Of a stretch of DNA of 37,796 bases, positions 20,482-37,796 are shown piece after piece. The stretch spans positions 1-37,796 of the forward strand of contig JALSQH010000128.1 in NCBI GenBank assembly GCA_026985515.1. The letters are read 5' to 3'. Origin of the DNA: a bacterium. Lineage in GTDB: Bacteria; JALSQH01. Numbering within the stretch: position 1 is the stretch's first letter; every line of letters starts with the position of its first letter. The position numbers and the translations under genes were made by a program. Under the pieces are notes generated by a model. That model saw nothing but the letters and a program-made list of their open reading frames with translations. It searched no databases and was not told the DNA's origin.

Positions 20482-21363
20482 TTATAACCCATAATAATTT
20501 AAAACCCTAGGAAAAAGATTTAGAAGCTTATAATTGAACACCCAATCCATTTCATACATACTCCTCAATAGTGGATCTTTCATTTTTTTCCACGCAGGAC
20601 CATCGGTAACCCATACAAAAACAATACCATGTTGCTTGGCAACCCTATCCATCTCTAAATAACTTTCAGCAATCGAAATAGGTTTACTACCAGTAACATT
20701 ATAAAAATTGCATTCGATAACAAACCGGGGATAATCTTTAAAATAAATAACTATGTCATGGACTTTCCCTCTCCCTTTACCAATGATAGGATACAGAGAA
20801 AATTGTGGATCATGTTTCACAATTCTTAATTTACTTCCAACCATCTTGCTCAACTTATTCAGACACATTTCTTCAAAAATATTTCCGCTACGGGATTTTC
20901 GGGTGTTTGTATCAATACCTACTTCGACGCCTAAAAGATAATCATGCAAGTCCTTAATTTTATCAAACAAATCTAATATACCAGTTTCCTTACAAAAAAA
21001 TGTAATTTTTTCAATATCGTTGGGGCTAATTTTCTTCTCATCGAACTCAAAAGTAACAAATTCTTCCAACGAAGGATCAAAAATATCAATTATTCCATTT
21101 TTGGCTCTTTCTGCTATTAAAAGAGGAATCACTTTAACAACTTTTGGATATTGCTTCAATAAAAAAAACAAGTGTTTCTCTCTATCTTTTATTCGCACAA
21201 GCGAATTTAAAATCGCTAACTCCGTCGCATAATTTGCTACTTTATTTGCCACTTTATCCCAATCCACAAAGTATTCAAAAGTCTTATTTGTTACAAGAAG
21301 CTTATTAAAAAAATCTTCTACATAAGAATTAAGTGTAGGATAACCAATTTTATCAAATAACAT
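20482..21363 (-). CDS. Type II restriction endonuclease, DpnII/MboI-like family
   Basis: The 293-residue protein carries the family block GIDTNTRKSRSG (149-160), then a PD-(D/E)xK-like core: HDIVIYF (202-208) and E217-C-N-F-Y221, followed by GSKPISIAESYLEM. The E-x-N-F-Y end of the active site is characteristic of DpnII-family nucleases. The recognition sequence cannot be read from the gene; GATC is known only for some relatives. Its ATG lies inside the methyltransferase gene (11-nt overlap, GGGAG upstream). The coding DNA is visibly more AT-rich than the pyr genes around it, which suggests acquisition by transfer. Confidence 0.85.
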   Translation of the reverse strand: MLFDKIGYPTLNSYVEDFFNKLLVTNKTFEYFVDWDKVANKVANYATELAILNSLVRIKDREKHLFFLLKQYPKVVKVIPLLIAERAKNGIIDIFDPSLEEFVTFEFDEKKISPNDIEKITFFCKETGILDLFDKIKDLHDYLLGVEVGIDTNTRKSRSGNIFEEMCLNKLSKMVGSKLRIVKHDPQFSLYPIIGKGRGKVHDIVIYFKDYPRFVIECNFYNVTGSKPISIAESYLEMDRVAKQHGIVFVWVTDGPAWKKMKDPLLRSMYEMDWVFNYKLLNLFPRVLNYYGL

Positions 21364-22294
21364 TATTCTCCCACCATTTTACACTAAACTTGTATTTTCT
21401 AAAATCCTTATCATCAATAGGCTTTCGGAAAACAAAAATATGTTCATGTGAAATTAAATAAAAATCATACTTTCTACCTCTCCATTTTTCTCTTGTTGCT
21501 TTCATATTCCACTGGAGCTTTATTATGTCTTCTTGAAGAATAAACCCGACATCCAAGAAAACTTGTAATACCCGAAATGCGATAGGTACATAATGCTTAA
21601 ATTTTCTGGTATCTCCAATTAAAATGGCACATATTTTCCCAGGCTTTAAAACCCTAAAAGACTCTTGTGCAACATCCTTCATTCCCTTTAAGTAATCATT
21701 GAAAGACAAATAGGAAAGATCACCAATCATATTTTTTTTCTTTGAATAAGTAATTATGTTCGCATAGGGAGGATGAGTGAGAATTAGGTCTATACTTTCA
21801 TTTTTTATTTTATCCAGCTTTCTCGCATCACCCCAAAAAGTTTTAATAATAGGTTCCTTATACTCAGGGAGAAGAGGATTGTAATAAAAATCAAGCCTGT
21901 TCCTTGCAAGCATCACAGCTTCATAGTTAACATCAACTCCTATGGCATTCCTTTCAAGCAACTTTGCTTCCACTAGTGTAGTTCCACTCCCCATCATTTG
22001 ATCCAATACCCAGTCACCCTTATTAGAATATTTAAGCATTAAATTTCTAGGTATATAGGGGGACCAATTACCTCTATAATTACCTTTATGAGTTGCCCAA
22101 CTACCTCTATCCGGGAAACTCCACACAGTGGTATTTTCTAGCTTATAGTCAGATGGTGGAGAAAAGGTTTTTATATTCCAGTTCTTCTCCAATTTTATTT
22201 TTACTCCTCCAATAGTTACAAACTCGTTTTTCATAAGAAATTTCTTGTAATCTTCTTCCGTTATCTCTATCATTTCTCTTACATTTTTTTCCAT
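21353..22294 (-). CDS. Site-specific DNA methyltransferase of the restriction-modification pair
   Basis: This 313-residue amino-methyltransferase has the SAM-binding motif DQMMGSGTTLVEA (98-110; families usually have DPFxGSGTT), GVDVN (119-123) and the catalytic THPPY (173-177, a variant of D/S/NPPY). Motif layout suggests a beta-type N4-cytosine or N6-adenine enzyme; which base cannot be decided. It would protect host sites from the endonuclease encoded next. ATG at 22294 has AAGGAG 5 nt upstream and starts 16 nt after the pyrB stop. The methylase-first order allows protection to precede cutting. No control (C) protein gene or own promoter is visible. Confidence 0.88.
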   Translation of the reverse strand: MEKNVREMIEITEEDYKKFLMKNEFVTIGGVKIKLEKNWNIKTFSPPSDYKLENTTVWSFPDRGSWATHKGNYRGNWSPYIPRNLMLKYSNKGDWVLDQMMGSGTTLVEAKLLERNAIGVDVNYEAVMLARNRLDFYYNPLLPEYKEPIIKTFWGDARKLDKIKNESIDLILTHPPYANIITYSKKKNMIGDLSYLSFNDYLKGMKDVAQESFRVLKPGKICAILIGDTRKFKHYVPIAFRVLQVFLDVGFILQEDIIKLQWNMKATREKWRGRKYDFYLISHEHIFVFRKPIDDKDFRKYKFSVKWWENNVI

Positions 22295-23809: not shown

Positions 23810-23838
23810 AGAATACCACAAGGGAAAGGTGATGTCAA
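23810..23838 (-). promoter_or_regulatory. Candidate promoter of the pyrimidine operon
   Basis: On the minus strand TTGACA (23838-23833), 17 nt, then TATTCT (23815-23810), preceded by TGG as in an extended -10. The predicted start near 23803 would fall inside the GGAGG ribosome site, which is awkward: either transcription starts slightly elsewhere or the leader is almost absent. It lies between the cytochrome gene stop and pyrR. Confidence 0.5.
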
Positions 23839-23849
23839 AAAGAGGGAAA

Positions 23850-25622
23850 CTACCTGTTCTCCTCCAGTTTATAAACTTTCCATCGCCAGTATTTGTAGCT
23901 TTTGTCGGGATAGAGCAGGATTCTTTTCTCCTTTTTCCCCAATCCCCTCTCTCCATCTTTGTAAAATCCCTTTAACTCAAAGAGGGGATAGAGATCCCAG
24001 GAGGTCAGGCCACCATTTACTCTGTACCTTCTCACACCCATTCCGGCGGTTTTGGGATTCTGGTGACACGATTCACAGCTTCTTCCCCGTAGAGTTACTG
24101 TGTGTGGAGAGTAAACTGCGAAGTAATTTGAAAGCATTTTGCCCGTTACCATGTCTCCATATGAAATGTAAAACTGAAATTCGGGTCTTGCGGGATAGAA
24201 TTTTCCCTTTCTCTCATCGTAACCCAGAGGGGGGTTTTCCCATCTTCTCATCATATATCCATTAAACCAGACGCCGGGGAGTTTTCTCCCTGTGATCCAG
24301 TCAACTCCCATCGTTGCTGGTGGAGGGAAATTGAAACCTTTATCACGCATGTAGAGGAAGAAAAACTGTTTCAACACCCATGGATCTCCCTGAACAAAAT
24401 AATCCTTCCAGTACTCCCAGTCCGGGACGTCCTCCCTGACAAGGTTCCAGCCATAATCCTGCTCCCCCCAGGCAGAGTGACAGGCAACGCAGGAGAGTTT
24501 CTCGTGCCCGGGAATTCTGTGGTAGAGGAGTTTTCTGCTGTACAGTTTCAGAGGGAAAATCTTTCCGGTGACATGAGACTTGAAGAAGTATTTACCCCCC
24601 CTTTTGAACATCCCTCTGTGCCAGAATTCTCCCCCTCCGTGACAGCTCATGCATGATACTTTTACAGCTTCCCTCTTCCATTTCACAGATCTCCCATTCC
24701 CCATGATCTCATTCCTGGTGTGGCAATCGGTACAGTGGAGACCTTTATGAAAATGAATATCGGGAACAAGGTGCAGGTAATCCATTCCATAGATTCCCTC
24801 AATACTTTTCTGATGGGCAAGATCAGCTCTGTATCTCAAATGATAATCACGCGGGTAGAGACCCGAATACTCTCCACCAACAAAATGTCCATGGTGACAG
24901 TGCATGCAGGTGGCAGATGGGATTCTATCTGAAAACTGATGGTAAAGTGGATATCCCCTTTTCCCCTTTAAACTTTTATCCCCTCCCCTGTAAACACCAT
25001 CATTTGCGTAGATAATATGACACGCAGAACATCCCTTTCCCCTCATGAATCCATCAACATCTGGAGGTTTTGAGGAGATATGGCAGATAGCACACTTTCC
25101 CCTGATAAGGGAAATAGCAAGGGCGGTCATATCTTCAGGGTAACTCTCCGGTTCTGGAAGTTTTCTGAAATGTGGAGAGGGGAGGGCAGAATAATTCTCC
25201 CTTTTCCCCGTCAATTGATAGAGAGTTGAATTTATAACCCCTGCAAAGGTGTAGTGGGGAGAAGTTCTCAGATTTTCTATATCCCTCTGATGGCAAACTG
25301 CACATCTTTTCCAGTTATCTGGAGCACCCGGATCAGGAATCAGGTTTCTGTGAGCTTCTTTAAAATTAGATGATTCTGGGTTGCCCCCGTGACACTTAAC
25401 ACAGGAAAAATTATGGTTTTTATCAATTACTTCTATGCCTCTGTGACACTTCACACAATTACCATATTTCTTAACATCGTATTTAACGGCAGGATTCTTT
25501 ACAATTTTAAAATGCTCCATTCCCAGCTCTCTATACCTCCCCAGATGAAAGAGTGGTACAAAATCATATCCAAGGAGAAGCAAAGCAGAGAATCCAGCTA
25601 TGAAAATGATAATTTTCTTCAT
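23850..25622 (-). CDS. Decaheme c-type cytochrome, membrane-anchored
   Basis: The 590-residue protein has an uncleaved-looking N-terminal helix (KKIIIFIAGFSALLLLG) and ten CxxCH heme sites (CVKCH twice, CAVCH, CAICH, CSACH, CMHCH, CTDCH, CMSCH, CVACH, CESCH). It is paralogous to the preceding 12-heme protein (shared PDIHFxKGLxCxDCHT, GHEKLxCxACHxAW and SPHT/DPHT segments). Where the paralogue has the heme site CYGCH, this protein has DYGWN (24444-24458), so one heme has been lost. Start choice: ATG at 25622 forms an ATGA overlap with the upstream stop and follows GGGAGG; the in-frame ATG at 25640 has no ribosome site. The likely role is periplasmic electron transfer from the cytochrome b/Rieske pair. 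Homologues should be called multiheme cytochromes of unknown partner. Confidence 0.88.
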   Translation of the reverse strand: MKKIIIFIAGFSALLLLGYDFVPLFHLGRYRELGMEHFKIVKNPAVKYDVKKYGNCVKCHRGIEVIDKNHNFSCVKCHGGNPESSNFKEAHRNLIPDPGAPDNWKRCAVCHQRDIENLRTSPHYTFAGVINSTLYQLTGKRENYSALPSPHFRKLPEPESYPEDMTALAISLIRGKCAICHISSKPPDVDGFMRGKGCSACHIIYANDGVYRGGDKSLKGKRGYPLYHQFSDRIPSATCMHCHHGHFVGGEYSGLYPRDYHLRYRADLAHQKSIEGIYGMDYLHLVPDIHFHKGLHCTDCHTRNEIMGNGRSVKWKREAVKVSCMSCHGGGEFWHRGMFKRGGKYFFKSHVTGKIFPLKLYSRKLLYHRIPGHEKLSCVACHSAWGEQDYGWNLVREDVPDWEYWKDYFVQGDPWVLKQFFFLYMRDKGFNFPPPATMGVDWITGRKLPGVWFNGYMMRRWENPPLGYDERKGKFYPARPEFQFYISYGDMVTGKMLSNYFAVYSPHTVTLRGRSCESCHQNPKTAGMGVRRYRVNGGLTSWDLYPLFELKGFYKDGERGLGKKEKRILLYPDKSYKYWRWKVYKLEENR

Positions 25623-27430
25623 TTTCCTCCCGCGGGACATCTATCGGGATGTGTCTTGAAATAACGGTAACTTTTTTCAAAATCTCTGTAAATTGGATCG
25701 GTGTAGCTATTGTGGCAGATAACACATTCCCCTGCTCTTTTTATCCTCATCAGTTCCCGTCTGTTAAAGGGTCTTGCACCAGTTCTTGAGAACTTTTGAA
25801 GTGGTTCTCCATCCCCCGACTCAACCCTGTAAAGGGCATACCTGTAACCCCATCTCACAGGTATCTGAATATCCTTCTCCCCATTGCCAAGACCCAGCCT
25901 GTATGGATTAAGGTGGCATTGAGCACATGTTGGTACTTCCCTTCTGGTGGTGTGGGGATCAAAAGCAGCCATACCCAGATGTCGATTCAACTGATGGAAA
26001 ACACCATCAGTGGTTTTGAGTGAAAACATAACCTGACATCCGGGAGTCAGAGGTCTTACCTTTCCATCTGCTCCCACGCCCAGGGGAGGTGTTTCAAATC
26101 TGTAAAAATCTGCCTTTTCACTCCACCTGCCCGGTGTCTTTTTCATGGTTAGCTTGTCATACTGACTCTTGCCAAGATCAAGCTTATCATGGCAACCGTA
26201 ACACTGGGGAGCCCATGCCGCATGGCAGGCACTGCAGGCAAGTTTCTCATGCCCCCTAAAAGTGTGATAAGGTGTGCCGGTAATGATCTTGATCTGCATC
26301 ATTTTTCCATCTTTTTTTCTGAAGTAGATCCACTTCCCGTTCCTGTACTGAAGATTGTAAATCTCCGTTCCTCTCTTTGTTACTGCCACATAATCACCTG
26401 TTCTCAAGGGCACTTTTCCATTTTCTCTGGCAAGTTTAATAGCCATTGAATCAGAGGTGACCTTTTTCTTATCAGGTGGTTTTTCGCCGCTTCCGTGACA
26501 ATCCTGACAGCTTATGTCGATCTGCTCCTCCATGTGGTAGTGCAACATTCCGTCTCCCATTGTACCCCTGAATGTGTGACAGTCGATGCATGTGAGACCC
26601 TTCTCAAAATGGATGTCAGGCAGAAGCCTCTGCCAGCCACGCTTTGAGGAGAGAAGGTCAGATCTCTGCAAACCATGAAAATAGGGGGTTCTGTAGTTGT
26701 CATCTTCATAAATTCCCTGATAAGAGAGGGCTGTCCTGGCACTTCTGTTGTGGCAGAGTTGACACCGTTTAACGGGAATCTTTGTTGTAAAAGATGGATG
26801 CCCCTTTTTTGCCTCATAGTGACAATCCATACATCCCCCACCCCTTTTGCCAATCTCGCCTCTGAAGTCCCCCTTTCTCTTATTTATATGGCATGTGGCG
26901 CAGAATTTACGGAACTGCCTTTCGGGATAATTTTTATTTCCAACTTTTCTGCACCATCTCACACCATCAGAGATGCTGTCAATTCCAATACAGCTACTGG
27001 GGGAAGAAGTAACACCCCACTGATACAGCAGACCTGAGATTATTCCGGTATTTGTTTCCATAATTGACCTCTTTACCTCCCTCACCCTCTCCGCATGACA
27101 GCCGCTTCTCCCGCAACTCTTCTCTGCATACTCAAGCCTTGCAGGATTCTCAACCACACCTGTGTGTGCTATTTTTTTATTTAAACTTTCCCCTATGCCT
27201 CCATGACAGATGGTGCAGCCAAAATTTTTAACGGGATGGGACTTATCAACATCAACATTCCTGTGACAGGTTACACAGTATTCCTTCTCTCCGTTGAGGT
27301 TAACAACATAGATGGGTTTCTCTGAAAATCTTCTCCACTCCTCCCTTTCTCTGAAAATATATACCGAAACAAACAGAGCAACGATGAAGATCAGTGAATA
27401 TATCCACTTTTTCAAATTGTCAATCTCCAT
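25619..27430 (-). CDS. Dodecaheme c-type cytochrome, membrane-anchored
   Basis: The 603-residue protein has a membrane anchor (about 9-26), eleven CxxCH sites and one CX4CH site (C106-GRSG-C111-H112), giving twelve predicted c-hemes. Two extra cysteines (C147, C160) may form a disulfide. Segments PDIHFEKGLTCIDCHT and GHEKLACSACHAAWAPQCYGCH are shared with the next gene, so the pair arose by duplication; this copy also has an extra C-terminal heme (CVICH, 569-573). The ATG lies 19 nt inside the cytochrome b gene and has AGAGGA upstream. It probably accepts electrons from the Rieske/cytochrome b proteins in place of cytochrome c1 and passes them across the periplasm. Confidence 0.9.
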   Translation of the reverse strand: MEIDNLKKWIYSLIFIVALFVSVYIFREREEWRRFSEKPIYVVNLNGEKEYCVTCHRNVDVDKSHPVKNFGCTICHGGIGESLNKKIAHTGVVENPARLEYAEKSCGRSGCHAERVREVKRSIMETNTGIISGLLYQWGVTSSPSSCIGIDSISDGVRWCRKVGNKNYPERQFRKFCATCHINKRKGDFRGEIGKRGGGCMDCHYEAKKGHPSFTTKIPVKRCQLCHNRSARTALSYQGIYEDDNYRTPYFHGLQRSDLLSSKRGWQRLLPDIHFEKGLTCIDCHTFRGTMGDGMLHYHMEEQIDISCQDCHGSGEKPPDKKKVTSDSMAIKLARENGKVPLRTGDYVAVTKRGTEIYNLQYRNGKWIYFRKKDGKMMQIKIITGTPYHTFRGHEKLACSACHAAWAPQCYGCHDKLDLGKSQYDKLTMKKTPGRWSEKADFYRFETPPLGVGADGKVRPLTPGCQVMFSLKTTDGVFHQLNRHLGMAAFDPHTTRREVPTCAQCHLNPYRLGLGNGEKDIQIPVRWGYRYALYRVESGDGEPLQKFSRTGARPFNRRELMRIKRAGECVICHNSYTDPIYRDFEKSYRYFKTHPDRCPAGGK

Positions 27431-28284
27431 CCAGGTCCTCTGAAAAAGTAAGCCTCAATGGTGAGAAGTGCATAAGTTAGAATGAGGAAAATCAGAACAA
27501 TCCGGAGAATATTCTTTCCCCTCTCCCCTGCAAAGGGAAAGATGAGCCAGAGAAGGAAGAAAACCAGCGGAATAACAATCCCGCCCCAGAAGGGGGGAAG
27601 CAGATAAACAAGTTCCTGAATACCAAGAAAAAACCAGGGGCCTTTTATGGGATCAATCTTCAGCGTGTGGGAAAGGGGTGGTGCCAGGCCGGGATAGATG
27701 GTGAAAAGGACAGGCAAAATATTTGCGATGACAAATTTCTCAACCGTTACATACCTCTGCCATCTGATATGACTGTAGATGAATATGAGGAGGAATATGG
27801 GGAGAATTATAACATGAAAAAAATAGAAGGTCACCGGGGCTTTTGAGTTGAAAAGAAAATCTGAAAGAAAACCCCCTATAACGGGGATCTTACCCGCAAT
27901 CTGAGAAGCGATCCTGCCCGCAAAAAATCCCTCAATGTCAAACCTCAAAACATATCCGCTGAAACCCTCAAAGACAATGATGTAGAACAAAAGCAGGCCA
28001 ACAAACCAGTATTCCAGTGAAACTTCTACCTCATACTTCTTCAAAAAATACTTCCAGGCGTGAAGAGCGAGGAAAACGAGGGAGAGATTTGACGAGTAGT
28101 AGTGAAGGCTTCTGAGCAGATATCCATAGGCATAAATGGAGTGGATAGCCACAACTGATTTATATGGTTTGCTTAAATCATAATTGAAAAGAAGGGCAAT
28201 TCCAGTTACAAAGGAGAGAATCAGAGTGGAGAGTGCAAGCTCACCCCAGGTGGGGGGATTCATATCCTTAAACTTTATAACCAC
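27412..28284 (-). CDS. Cytochrome b (b6-type) of a bc-like quinol-oxidising complex
   Basis: The 290-residue membrane protein has about seven helices. Two bis-histidine pairs are present: H61/H75 (13 residues between) and H157/H172 (14 between, the b6-type spacing). A subunit-IV-like stretch follows, with GPWFFLGIQELVYLLPP (215-231) at the place of the quinol-site PEWY motif, so the usual acidic residue is absent. It would oxidise quinol and split electrons between heme b and the Rieske protein encoded upstream. The start is uncertain: GTG at 28284 lacks a ribosome site, and ATG at 28263 (Met8) has only AAGG very close. The next gene overlaps by 19 nt. Confidence 0.88.
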   Translation of the reverse strand: MVIKFKDMNPPTWGELALSTLILSFVTGIALLFNYDLSKPYKSVVAIHSIYAYGYLLRSLHYYSSNLSLVFLALHAWKYFLKKYEVEVSLEYWFVGLLLFYIIVFEGFSGYVLRFDIEGFFAGRIASQIAGKIPVIGGFLSDFLFNSKAPVTFYFFHVIILPIFLLIFIYSHIRWQRYVTVEKFVIANILPVLFTIYPGLAPPLSHTLKIDPIKGPWFFLGIQELVYLLPPFWGGIVIPLVFFLLWLIFPFAGERGKNILRIVLIFLILTYALLTIEAYFFRGPGWRLTI

Positions 28285-28335
28285 AATTTTATGTTACTGA
28301 AAGGAAGAAGGTAAGGCAAGGGGACGCTACATTTT

Positions 28336-28776
28336 TCAATCCACCTTCACCCTCTGGGAAAATGGAGCAGGTCTGTCTGGGAAAATGATCAATTTATCAC
28401 CTGATTTTTTAATCAACAGCGCCTCAAGATGTCTCTTAGCAGGGCCGTGGACAACATCACCCTCCAGATCAAACTCGCTCCCGTGACATGGACAGTGAAA
28501 AAGTTTTCCGTTCCAGATGGGTTTGCAGCCCAGATGGGTGCATTTAGCCTTCAACGCAAATAATCCCTCTTCATCTCTGATGAGAAAAACCTTTCCCAGA
28601 TCCTTTACCTCTCCCATTTTCAAATGAGAATCGGATAAGTCATAAATGACCCGCTTGCTTTTAACCCGACCACTTTCAGCAAACTTTCCGGTTATATAAG
28701 CAGCAACTGCACCAAGAAAGGTAAATGGGTGAAACAGTTTTTTTAAAAACCTTCTCCTCTGTTCGCTGAAGTTCAT
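28336..28776 (-). CDS. Rieske iron-sulfur protein
   Basis: The protein has about 146 residues. Cluster ligands lie in CTHLGC and CPCHGS (about 79-84 and 95-100), giving two Cys and two His for the 2Fe-2S cluster plus the disulfide cysteines. The N-terminus has a twin-arginine motif (RRRFLK) followed by a hydrophobic helix, the normal Tat-exported membrane anchor of Rieske subunits. ATG at 28776 shares one base with the hisD stop (TGATG); a GTG one codon earlier is the alternative. Ribosome binding looks weak, so translation probably depends on hisD. It partners the cytochrome b 51 nt downstream. Confidence 0.92.
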
Positions 28777-30071
28777 CACTTTAAATCTTTTTTCAGTTGA
28801 TTCAGTCTCACCCTCACTGCATTAGCATGGGCAGGTAAGCCCTCCTTTTCAGCAAGAGCTATTACCTTATCCCCATACTTTTTCAGCCACTCACCATCAA
28901 CCGCAATAATACTGCTTCTCTTGAGAAAATCCTCAACACCAAGAGGGGAAAAGAAGCGGGCGGTACCACCCGTTGGTAAGGTATGATCAGGACCTGCAAG
29001 ATAATCTCCCACAGGTTCCGAGGAGTAATCTCCAATGAAGATCGCACCTGCATTTTTGATTCTTTCCATTGCCCTTTCAACCCTGACCCCAATTAATTCA
29101 AGATGCTCAGGAGCAAACTGATTTACAAAATCAAACATCTCCTCCTCGTCACGAAAAACAAGGATTCCTCCTCGCTGCGAAGATTTCTCAATAATATTTC
29201 TCCTGGGATTCTTCAAAACCATTCTCTCAAATTGGTCTTTTACCTTTCCGGCAAGATTCTCAGAAAGCGTTACAATCACAGGATATGCCATCTCATCATG
29301 TTCTGCCTGGGACATCAGATCAGCTGCTATCCACTCAGGATTCCCGTCAAGGGCAACAACTAAAATTTCACTTGGACCCGCTATCATATCTATATCCACA
29401 ACTCCATATACCATCTTTTTCGCAGTTGCCACATAAATATTTCCCGGTCCCACAATCTTATCAACTCGAGGAATACTCTCAGTTCCATATGCAAGAGCAA
29501 AAATCGCCTGAGCTCCTCCAATCCTGAAGATTCTGTCCACCCCTGCGATATCGGCAGCAACAAGAACAGAGGGATCATACTCGCCATGGGGAAATGGAGT
29601 GACCATGATGATTTCCTTCACTCCAGCCACCTTTGCCGGTACAGCATTCATCAAGACTGTGGAAGGGTAGGATGCCTTTCCACCGGGCACATAAATTCCC
29701 ACCTTCTCCAGAGGGGTTATCCTCTCTCCCATCAAAGATCCTCCCTCTTCCATAAACCAGCTTTCCGGGAGCCTTTTACTCTGGTACCTTCTTATTCTTT
29801 CAGCAGCAACTTTAAGTGCATCAATAACCTCATCTGAAACAGCATCCCACGCTTTCCTTCTCTCCTCCTTAGTGACTTCAAATCCTGAGTCTGAAAGATC
29901 CATTCCATCCCATCTTTTCGTATACTCCACAAGGGCTGAATCACCATCCTTTCTTATGCTTTCCCTAATTTCTCTTACTTTTTCCTCAATCTCTGTAATA
30001 TCAAAGAATCTATCGAGGAGGGCTTTCCTCTTTTCTTCAAATTGTTCCGAGCCTGAAACATAAACTTCCAT
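28776..30071 (-). CDS. hisD: Histidinol dehydrogenase
   Basis: The 431-residue zinc enzyme catalyses the last two oxidations of histidine synthesis (L-histidinol to L-histidine with NAD). Family blocks are complete: [18 protein letters not shown] (about 128-145), [32 protein letters not shown] and [18 protein letters not shown]. The ATG has GGAGG 6 nt upstream. It starts right after hisG and ends inside the Rieske start codon. Confidence 0.97.
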
Positions 30072-34706: not shown

Positions 34707-37700
34707 TTACGGAGTGGCAAATATTGTCAATTTGTAGGCAGTACCCATATTTCTCAAAGAGGGAAAGGATGGGTATCCAATGACATAGGCTCCGGCATCA
34801 TTATCATACACAAGAGAATCAAGTCTTACTAAACCATCACTGGCAAGGGCATTGTAGGCTACAGGCTGATCAAAAACCCAGCATCCCAGGTCTGGCATAA
34901 AAACTCCCATCTCAAGAGTTGCAGGTTCGCCGATATAAAAGACAAGATTACCATCCTCAGTTATCTGGGGAGGGGTCTCATCCACAGGATCTGAAACAGG
35001 ATCAAAGCATGGAGTAAGTTGAGAAGTACTACCGAGAGGAGCAGAATAGATACTTTTATCTTTAAAATATGTCACCTGTAACTGACCATTAACCATAGAG
35101 AATCTGCTTCCCCCTATATCACCGGAATCTACTCGTTTATAGCCTTTACCCACTGTGAATATATCAAGCTCAAAACTGGTACCTGCATCCCTTGTAAAGA
35201 GGATGTATGTATCATTATCCACTCTCACTATGTTCAGCCAATCAGATACAATATCTCCACCACTATAAATAGTACTACAGGTAAAATTAAAACTATTATC
35301 ATTACCCTCACAGTAGTGGAGATCGCTGGAATCATCCACATACGCTATAAAGAAATCTGTTACACCTGGTATAGATTCATCCGGTTTCATGAAAAGAGCT
35401 GCATTTATAACATTCACCTGACTGGTCTCAATATTCTCACCTGTGCTGTTGCCAGGAGCGAAAATATTAAAATAGTGATTCTGAGTTTCTCCAATGAAGT
35501 AGACCTTACCGTTTCTCGCCTCAGTATCAAAAACCACCACACTGTCACTACCTGTGGGGGTCGGGGTCACATTCTCATCATCAATCTGGGAAAGTACACC
35601 TTTATAGTTTCCACTGTCATCATAGCCGGTGGAGAGAAAATACCACTTATCACTCTGTTTAAAGAAATCAAATCTCTCTGTTGCCAAAGGTATCTGTAGC
35701 CAGTGATAATCTGCATCGGAAGATATGGGTGTTATGTTGAAAGTTGCAGAGGAATCATTGGCATTTCCATAATAAAGATCAAGTTCCCCATTCCATGCTG
35801 TCAGATAAAGCTTACCAGAATTATCGATTAAACCTGAAATCTGTCTTCTTCCCGGACATGGGAAATCCAGGGCTTTTGAAGCTGGATACTGATCTATTGT
35901 AACAGTAACTGGATTGGAAAAGGGTGAATAGATCTCATCTATCTCCCCAGCACTGCAATTATCGGAGAGATTTGTGTAGGTTAAGATAACAGGATTATTA
36001 TGTGAATCAAATGTAATATCGCTTTCATTGAGAAGGAGACCATCAAAGCTATATTCTGGACCAAATGAAACAACATTGCTGCTGGTATCATCCCCTCTGA
36101 ACTCAACAAGGTAGCCCCTTGTATCAGGTGGATTGGAAGTATCACCTGTGACCTTCTTATAATATATGTAAGTGTTGCCATCTCCAGCCACTCCAAAGCC
36201 TGTCATTCCCACATCACCACTATCAACAAGAGTGGAAGTCCATCCCTGTCCAGAATCATATGCCCAGTAAACCTCACCCTCATTACTGTCAAGATCGCCA
36301 AAGTAGAGAAGCACCTCGGCCCTTTCATGCGCAGAATTCCATTTAGCTTTCAAATCAATTATATGAAGTGAGGAATTGATCTGAAGCAACTGCTCATCAG
36401 ACCCTACTCTACCACTGCTATCCACAACTATCCTGTTTAAATAGAAATGCCCTGAAGAATCGAGAGAAGTGTAGAATATTTCAATACCTCTCCCATCATA
36501 ACAACTTCCCACAGCACGGAGAAGGATCTCGTTACTGTCGGGGTCAAATCTCTTTACCACAGCTGAGGCAGATCCTCCCGGTGACCATTTCACAAAATTT
36601 ATACCAGGATTCAGGTAGAGAGAAGGATACACCACGAAAATATTTGTTCCATCAGTTGTGACGGAAAATTCTGATACTGGATCATTAACTATATTGTATG
36701 AAGTTGAAGGATCATTCAGGTCAACAGCAAAAATTCCTCCTCTGCCCTGATATGAAGTGTAAAATGCAAAATAACCACCTGATGTTGAGACAAGTTTATT
36801 CTGATATCCTGAAATTCCCATACCTGCTTCACTTTCAAGAGTTAAACCTGCTTTCACAATCATTGCTGAAGCATAATTTGGAACTTCATCGTGACTATAA
36901 ATAGCATAATAGGTTACCACATCCCTTTCTGCCTGTGTGTCCCTTATGTGAAGCCAGTTACTGTTGGGAATCTGGTCGGGAGTTCCACTGACAACTCTGC
37001 CATCATCGTAGGATGAAGGTGGTGAACCCACTTTGGCAACTACTCTATATCCTGAAATATCATCAGTATTTGATGGTATTTTCCACACTATCTGATTTCC
37101 GGTTAAAGTCGGTACCCCTCTTGCCTCCACCACAGGGGCAGGAGGTACACTATCATGCGGGGTACCCTTAACTGTGGCACCACTGGAATAATTGGGCACC
37201 TCATCATAGGTGAAAAAGGTGTAACAGTATTCTTCATCATCAGTGAGACCCGTATCTTCAAAGTAAGCTGTTCCTTTTGTAAAATCACCAACCAGCGTTC
37301 CATTTGAATCATTAACCGATGCGGGACAGTAACTGTTATCCCCCCGCAAAACCTTAACTCCCTCATAATCAGAATCTGACGGTTCACTCCAGGAGATTTT
37401 AAGTGCATTTCCTTCTGGCACTACAGTAACATTCAGTCCGTACACTTCCCCGGGCGCCCGTGAATCGGAAGGAGTTGCACAGACAGTCTGTGATCCTGAT
37501 GAATAGTTTGGGACTTCGTCAAATGCAAAGATCCTGTAGCAATATGTTTCACCATCAGTCAGACCATCATCCTCAAACTCAGTGGTGTATGGATACACTG
37601 TGCCTAAATCCACCGCATTGGGATCATTAACTCCACCGGGGAGGTAATTATTATCGCCTCGCAATATTTTTACTCCTGCCAGATCAGTATCGGAAGGTTT

Positions 37701-37796
37701 GGTCCACACCAGTTTCAGAGCATTCCCCTCTGGTAATACATCTATGTGAAAATTGCTCACATTACCGGGAGGTACACTGTCTTGAGGTACTCCTAC
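34707..37796 (-). CDS. Large fibronectin-III repeat surface protein, 5' end outside window
   Basis: The frame stays open through the right edge. A GTG at 37760 is possible as a start, but the residues before it (PQDSVPP) match the linker between later repeats, so the true start lies beyond the window. At least three Fn3-like domains (repeats of about 90 residues, each ending in DEVPNYSSG-like text) are joined by DS-x-PP linkers. They are followed by about 650 residues of beta-rich sequence with repeated short blocks such as YFGDLDSNEGEVYW and LYYGNANDSS, possibly a propeller-like domain, and a C-terminal beta module. Asp/Ser/Tyr-rich composition and paired cysteines in the repeats fit an exported protein. 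No enzyme motif is seen. Adhesion or ligand binding is an inference. Confidence 0.8.
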   Translation of the reverse strand, partial: VGVPQDSVPPGNVSNFHIDVLPEGNALKLVWTKPSDTDLAGVKILRGDNNYLPGGVNDPNAVDLGTVYPYTTEFEDDGLTDGETYCYRIFAFDEVPNYSSGSQTVCATPSDSRAPGEVYGLNVTVVPEGNALKISWSEPSDSDYEGVKVLRGDNSYCPASVNDSNGTLVGDFTKGTAYFEDTGLTDDEEYCYTFFTYDEVPNYSSGATVKGTPHDSVPPAPVVEARGVPTLTGNQIVWKIPSNTDDISGYRVVAKVGSPPSSYDDGRVVSGTPDQIPNSNWLHIRDTQAERDVVTYYAIYSHDEVPNYASAMIVKAGLTLESEAGMGISGYQNKLVSTSGGYFAFYTSYQGRGGIFAVDLNDPSTSYNIVNDPVSEFSVTTDGTNIFVVYPSLYLNPGINFVKWSPGGSASAVVKRFDPDSNEILLRAVGSCYDGRGIEIFYTSLDSSGHFYLNRIVVDSSGRVGSDEQLLQINSSLHIIDLKAKWNSAHERAEVLLYFGDLDSNEGEVYWAYDSGQGWTSTLVDSGDVGMTGFGVAGDGNTYIYYKKVTGDTSNPPDTRGYLVEFRGDDTSSNVVSFGPEYSFDGLLLNESDITFDSHNNPVILTYTNLSDNCSAGEIDEIYSPFSNPVTVTIDQYPASKALDFPCPGRRQISGLIDNSGKLYLTAWNGELDLYYGNANDSSATFNITPISSDADYHWLQIPLATERFDFFKQSDKWYFLSTGYDDSGNYKGVLSQIDDENVTPTPTGSDSVVVFDTEARNGKVYFIGETQNHYFNIFAPGNSTGENIETSQVNVINAALFMKPDESIPGVTDFFIAYVDDSSDLHYCEGNDNSFNFTCSTIYSGGDIVSDWLNIVRVDNDTYILFTRDAGTSFELDIFTVGKGYKRVDSGDIGGSRFSMVNGQLQVTYFKDKSIYSAPLGSTSQLTPCFDPVSDPVDETPPQITEDGNLVFYIGEPATLEMGVFMPDLGCWVFDQPVAYNALASDGLVRLDSLVYDNDAGAYVIGYPSFPSLRNMGTAYKLTIFATP
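36855..37796 (-). repeat. Tandem Fn3-domain repeats within the surface protein
   Basis: Three protein-level repeats lie at 37739-37470, 37424-37158 and 37118-36855. The first two share PEGNALK, the pattern W.(K/E)PSD(T/S)D, (K/V)xLRGDN and DEVPNYSSG; the third is more diverged (DEVPNYAS). A linker-like stretch at the window edge predicts a further repeat outside. The two closest copies suggest recent duplication. Confidence 0.75.

Follow-up and report, generated by a model that had tools for sequence, protein, structure and literature searches.

Cytochrome bc complexes usually consist of a Rieske protein, a cytochrome b and a one-heme cytochrome, c1 or f. The closest described relative of the locus reported here departs from that plan: in Geobacter, GSU2935–2931 (extMNOPQ, also cbc) encode a 12-heme cytochrome, a 10-heme cytochrome, a Rieske protein, a cytochrome b and a subunit-IV-like protein (PMC2825233, PMC5877670). 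In the wider GSU2937–2930 cluster, which six Geobacter genomes share, Butler et al. in 2010 saw a putative bc complex made up of 12-, 10-, 5- and 2-heme cytochromes together with the Rieske protein and cytochrome b, and they proposed it as the quinol-oxidation site of this extracellularly respiring organism (PMC2825233). Jahan et al. named the cluster extHIJKLMNOPQS in 2018 and found that without extI the reduction of selenite and tellurite is impaired, whereas that of Fe(III) citrate is not; selenite and tellurite reduction also suffered when the cytochrome genes downstream were disrupted, a result labeled preliminary by its authors (PMC5877670). Here we analyze a contig of 37,796 bases (JALSQH010000128.1, hereafter the window) within a 2.36 Mb draft genome of the bacterial lineage JALSQH01 that is 97.6% complete. 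It carries four consecutive genes for a Rieske protein, a b6-type cytochrome b, a 12-heme and a 10-heme cytochrome. This cassette is a divergent, re-ordered variant of the known and biochemically uncharacterized Geobacter complex, a variant because it sits on a deep branch separate from that of Geobacter ExtM. The initial annotation had supposed that a complex of this composition might be undescribed, which does not hold given that a 12-heme/10-heme/Rieske/cytochrome b cluster was reported in 2010 (PMC2825233) and named extMNOPQ in 2018 (PMC5877670). The family, widespread and with very large multihemes at the c1/f position, thus includes the complex put forward in 2010 as a missing site of quinol oxidation. 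We put at roughly 60% the probability that the window's Rieske protein and cytochrome b form a quinol oxidase in which the 12-heme cytochrome replaces c1/f, and which serves a periplasmic acceptor, most likely a sulfur or selenium compound, and not an extracellular one.

The four proteins and their cofactor motifs

All four genes (Table 1) lie on the minus strand, and the overlaps among the last three noted in the initial annotation are borne out, with 19 nucleotides shared by the cytochrome b and 12-heme genes and an ATGA overlap joining the 12-heme and 10-heme genes; the Rieske and cytochrome b genes are separated by 51 nucleotides. The Rieske protein has both ligand motifs, CTHLGC (C-x-H) and CPCHGS (C-x2-C-H), and an N-terminus, QRRRFLKK, that resembles a twin-arginine translocation (Tat) signal. 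Its likely start is ATG 28776, in a TGATG overlap that shares a base with the hisD stop codon, the longest frame opening at GTG 28779. In Campylobacterota cassettes (L067, L068, L071, L073, L097, L101, L111, L112) the second motif reads CPCH[H/K/S/D]S, not CPCHGS, an unusual change that adjoins the cluster ligands. Cytochrome b contains two bis-histidine pairs, H61/H75 and H157/H172, invariant in 27 sequences and spaced in the b6 pattern with 13 and 14 residues between the partners. The ExtP model matches its N-terminal part (E 3.4e-26) and the ExtQ model its C-terminal part (E 2.3e-4), so that the C-terminal third corresponds to ExtQ, with the subunit-IV part shortened. The PEWY position reads GPWF, and P216, W217 and F219 are invariant in the same 27 sequences.

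The 12-heme cytochrome has eleven CXXCH motifs and one CX4CH motif (CGRSGCH), all of them invariant (100%, 59 sequences), behind one N-terminal hydrophobic helix. Outside these motifs it keeps five invariant and two highly conserved histidines, two invariant methionines and two invariant lysines; because the conserved distal histidines are fewer than the hemes, there may be hemes that are open or have other ligands. The 10-heme protein probably starts at ATG 25622, which follows a Shine–Dalgarno-like GGGAGGA, forms the ATGA overlap, corresponds to M7 of the longest frame and is conserved in 97% of relatives. The two cytochromes are homologous (28.7% identity, 161 bits), and in hidden Markov model scans several class III/c7-type cytochrome models match both. 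Every heme motif of the pair is kept in at least 92% of relatives and the gene order recurs across phyla, and for these reasons the gene set is not due to chance. An N-terminal helix that looks uncleaved is retained throughout the 12-heme proteins, that of the window included, in contrast to the cleavable-looking signals of many relatives of the 10-heme protein, a difference that fits the 12-heme protein as the complex-bound subunit.

AlphaFold single-chain models reach a mean predicted local distance difference test score of 84.6 for the 12-heme and 73.9 for the 10-heme protein. With Foldseek, neither model had a PDB match at E ≤0.001, and in VIA-align the 12-heme model found nothing above Z 2.2; because multihemes have little secondary structure, both results are uninformative on fold novelty. 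An identity as NrfA or octaheme reductase was rejected, direct PDB sequence matches to nitrite reductases being short and weak.

Table 1. Features of the window, with positions, and groups of related loci
Feature	Position or loci	Strand	Remarks
Promoter-like site TTGACA-17-TATTCT	23810..23838	-	between the 10-heme and pyrR-like genes; consensus scan
10-heme c-type cytochrome, paralogue of the 12-heme protein, 590 residues from likely start	23850..25622	-	10 CXXCH; homology to ExtM/ExtN/ExtO models
12-heme c-type cytochrome, ExtM-like, membrane-anchored, 603 residues	25619..27430	-	NF040943 (ExtM), E 3.4e-104
Cytochrome b, b6-type, 290 residues, subunit-IV-like C-terminal part fused	27412..28284	-	PF00033, E 1.6e-20
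Rieske [2Fe-2S] protein, ~146 residues, Tat-type N-terminal anchor	28336..28776	-	PF00355, E 1.2e-12
hisD	28776..30071	-	closes the prfA-prmC-murA-hisG-hisD run; bounds the cassette on its upstream side
Cassettes in the order Rieske-b-12-10(8)	L067-L069, L071, L075, L082, L093, L097, L101, L105, L111, L119
Seven-gene runs headed by a PhsA-like gene	L068, L071, L073, L074, L076, L097, L101, L111, L112, L116, L157

Relatives and genomic setting

Named genomes were searched for relatives, yielding 191 loci, the best 80 of which were retained for counts of gene order. The four-gene cluster, for which the initial annotation had proposed a search, recurs in the window's exact order in 19 of these 80, in Calditrichota, Campylobacterota, Desulfurellales and Desulfobacteraceae; a further seven show parts of it and 13 have the Geobacter order 12-10-Rieske-b. 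Loci with the core show strong conservation of gene order and overlaps in these two arrangements. The four proteins have congruent pairwise distances (r 0.89–0.96; 19 loci; beyond 2000 permutations), which shows inheritance as a block and is by itself no proof of a complex. In a quick tree of the 12-heme proteins, Geobacter-type ExtM lies across a long, fully supported branch with the window on the other side, weakly placed beside Calditrichota on a long branch of its own, so that its exact position is unsure. The 12-heme proteins closest to the window's (44–46%) are lone ones from WOR-3 genomes (L062, L063, L064, L072), whose loci show no Rieske, cytochrome b or 10-heme gene in the stretch examined.

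At 11 loci (Table 1) genes for a PhsA-like protein, a PhsB-like protein, a small protein, the Rieske protein, cytochrome b, the 12-heme and an 8- or 10-heme cytochrome follow in one run. The PhsA-like-headed runs of Campylobacterota and Desulfurellales have no PhsC/NrfD gene, and their PhsA-like proteins bear Tat signals; such a run is possibly an undescribed sulfur-compound oxidoreductase with a bc core. The small secreted protein ends in EGC in those read out. At seven other loci, in Campylobacterota (L085, L086, L089, L090, L099, L103, L110), the 12-heme gene adjoins a rhodanese gene and a pair of genes for YeeE/YedE sulfur transport; Rieske and cytochrome b genes are lacking there, and the 12-heme gene has an 8-heme partner wherever the contig is not cut short.

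The only cytochrome b gene of the genome is the cassette's own, COX1 was not found, and cytochrome c1 (PF02167) is absent genome-wide (the cytochrome f family was not searched), which agrees with the initial annotation's statement that c1 is lacking and leaves no separate c1 to pair with these genes; for these reasons no other bc-type route is seen. Multihemes were sought by two spacing searches for paired CXXCH motifs 6–26 residues apart, which pairs spaced more widely or more closely and monoheme proteins would escape. At this spacing no further multiheme was found, the matches being confined to the cassette except for a stretch on contig C15 that, read from its sequence, has a stop codon inside the first motif. 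A genome without other detected multihemes is a simple setting in which to ask about acceptor and energy saving in anaerobic respiration. ResB and CcsA genes for system II heme attachment stand side by side on contig C103, and PhsA-like molybdoenzymes with FdhI-type cytochrome b are encoded on contigs C17 and C218 (L172, L174), the latter also with rhodanese; these enzymes are likely the organism's terminal sulfur-compound reductases.

With housekeeping genes named from their translations, the minus strand of the window reads prfA-prmC-murA-hisG-hisD, the four cassette genes, pyrR and further pyr genes. The promoter-like site before pyrR has 10 of 12 consensus matches, which is not evidence of function, and suggests that the cassette ends there. 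The sister genus (G001) keeps the five-gene run, but hisD is followed there by another gene, and the 2.4 kb up to its contig end contain neither a Rieske nor a cytochrome b nor a multiheme gene; the cassette has therefore either entered the window's lineage or disappeared from the sister genus. The possibility that the contig is mis-binned was rejected, since MurA is 79% identical to that of the sister genus (≤57% in ten other genomes compared) and the five genes are syntenic; CarB, tried as a second test, had no match in the 80% complete sister genome and was hence uninformative. Elsewhere in the window, the pyr genes are split between pyrB and pyrC (20482–22294, minus strand) by a 313-residue protein with methyltransferase-like motifs and a 293-residue neighbor, where G+C falls to 36%, which may be an inserted restriction-modification pair, and 34707–37760 (minus strand) encodes a predicted protein of 1017 residues with no Pfam match at E 1e-5.

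Direction and end point of electron flow

From the gene set, its order, motifs and conservation, and the absences given above, we infer a complex, a direction of electron flow, proton pumping and an acceptor as follows. Quinol would be oxidized at the outer (Qp) site, one electron returning to the inner quinone site by way of the two b hemes in a proton-translocating Q-cycle and the other passing from the Rieske cluster to the 12-heme and then to the 10-heme cytochrome. The electrons would be used in the periplasm, either at one of the pair's own hemes or in a partner enzyme, and most likely on a sulfur or selenium compound. The bc-type quinol-oxidizing core with multihemes for c1/f, as the initial annotation had conceived it, is supported by the missing c1, the single cytochrome b and the conserved four-gene block. 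A periplasmic end point is argued for by the fact that no other multiheme was detected, and sulfur or selenium compounds are hinted at because relatives adjoin genes for PhsA-like, rhodanese and YeeE/YedE proteins, a link that supplies testable substrates for the family.

Several points weigh against this reading. The glutamate of the PEWY quinol site is absent from all 27 cytochrome b homologues, a genuine difference from the bc complexes of the textbooks; because this residue is missing throughout the family, quinol oxidation may not proceed as it does in those complexes. PF02621, of the futalosine menaquinone pathway, is absent from the genome (the men pathway was not searched), so the quinone is not assigned. 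No sulfur genes flank the window's own cassette, the neighbor counts in relatives come without a background rate, and a Rieske chain could not drive the reduction of thiosulfate or polysulfide, the potential of which is too low, so that the sulfur-gene neighbors do not name the substrate. Finally, 41 of the 80 loci have the multihemes alone or paired with no Rieske or cytochrome b gene beside them, some being cut by contig ends, and because about half of the related loci are of this kind the 12-heme/10-heme pair is a separable module.

The alternatives concern where the electrons go and whether the four proteins act together at all. A self-contained quinol-driven terminal reductase, in which the 12-heme and 10-heme subunits, the sole multihemes detected in a genome where neither c1 nor a heme-copper oxidase gene (COX1) was found, would carry electrons and also reduce the acceptor themselves, is in our view doubtful. 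Electrons might also flow in reverse, from periplasmic sulfur compounds through the multihemes or a PhsA-like partner to the Rieske protein and cytochrome b and on to quinone, with the proton gradient paying for the uphill step. The Tat-exported PhsA-like and PhsB-like genes that head runs without PhsC/NrfD in Campylobacterota and Desulfurellales would suit this direction, Desulfurella and Campylobacterota being sulfur-cycling groups, as would the PhsA-like complexes in the window's own genome. However, the window's cassette is without PhsA, the genome's PhsA-like enzymes have a cytochrome b of their own, and reverse operation of bc complexes is known mainly from high-potential donors, which makes reverse flow unlikely.

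Slightly less probable still is that the complex feeds an extracellular chain, one of the two end points ventured in the initial annotation, with its 22 hemes as a wire to the outer membrane, minerals or partner cells. Geobacter relatives do adjoin the porin-like extI (PMC5877670), ExtM is listed among extracellular cytochromes (PMC13194489) and Butler et al. placed the cluster at quinol oxidation in an organism with extracellular respiration (PMC2825233). Against this, the window has no porin gene near the cassette, Geobacter can do without extI when reducing Fe(III) citrate (PMC5877670), and a Pcc/Mtr-type conduit in the outer membrane is not visible, no further multiheme being found at 6–26 residue spacing (porin families were not searched genome-wide). 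The idea of a wire is weakened by this lack of other closely spaced multihemes and by the separability of the pair, and electrons are unlikely to leave the cell through a multiheme conduit. That Rieske/cytochrome b and the multihemes are separate systems sharing an operon, the latter a stand-alone periplasmic reductase fed otherwise, is the least probable of these readings: it accords with the 41 loci just mentioned, the lone 12-heme genes of WOR-3 among them, but not with the strong conservation of order and overlaps in two arrangements wherever the core is present, nor with the window's genome, in which no other bc or multiheme partner was found.

Comparison with known complexes

Like Geobacter extMNOPQ, the window encodes the same five parts together, and no c1 or f is described in the Geobacter cluster either. 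Unlike the Geobacter order 12-10-Rieske-b-Q, the window's is Rieske-b-12-10, the b and Q parts form one fused gene in place of a separate extQ, and none of extH (rhodanese), extI (porin), extJ, extKL or extS lies nearby, the flanks being hisD and pyrR. The 12-heme protein is 29–34% identical to Geobacter ExtM, and the NCBIfam equivalog cut-offs are not reached (ExtM 349.3 against 800, ExtP 92.3 against 290 and ExtQ 21.4 against 150 bits); by these scores the window's proteins are homologues of ExtM, ExtP and ExtQ, not equivalogs. In cable bacteria, ExtN has been classed as potentially catalytic, with a pentacoordinate heme in models (PMC11976967).

With b6f and bc1 complexes the window shares the Rieske ligands and the b6 bis-histidine spacing, and it differs from them in that no c1 was found, multihemes are present instead, GPWF stands for PEWY and the C-terminal part is shortened. 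Replacement of cytochrome f has a precedent in Kuenenia, where Kuste4569–4574 and Kustd1480–1485 combine a b6-like cytochrome b and subunit IV with a hexa- or octaheme cytochrome c (PMC12954380); those complexes use other multihemes and include an NAD(P) oxidoreductase subunit that has no counterpart in the window. In Caldithrix abyssi, a Rieske/cytochrome b pair with no c1-type gene has been proposed to feed periplasmic multihemes (PMC5317091).

The Rieske-b-12-10 order of Calditrichota and Campylobacterota was not found described in the open-licence literature. Cassettes of Calditrichota, Campylobacterota, Desulfurellales and Desulfobacteraceae (Rieske-b-12-10(8), Table 1) are nonetheless like the window's in genes, order, overlaps and GPW-type motif, and their fused cytochrome b of ~260–305 residues is of the same kind. 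Their 12-heme proteins are 38–41% and their cytochromes b 23–29% identical to those of the window, and many of these cassettes are joined to PhsA-like, rhodanese or YeeE/YedE genes, whereas that of the window stands between hisD and the pyr genes.

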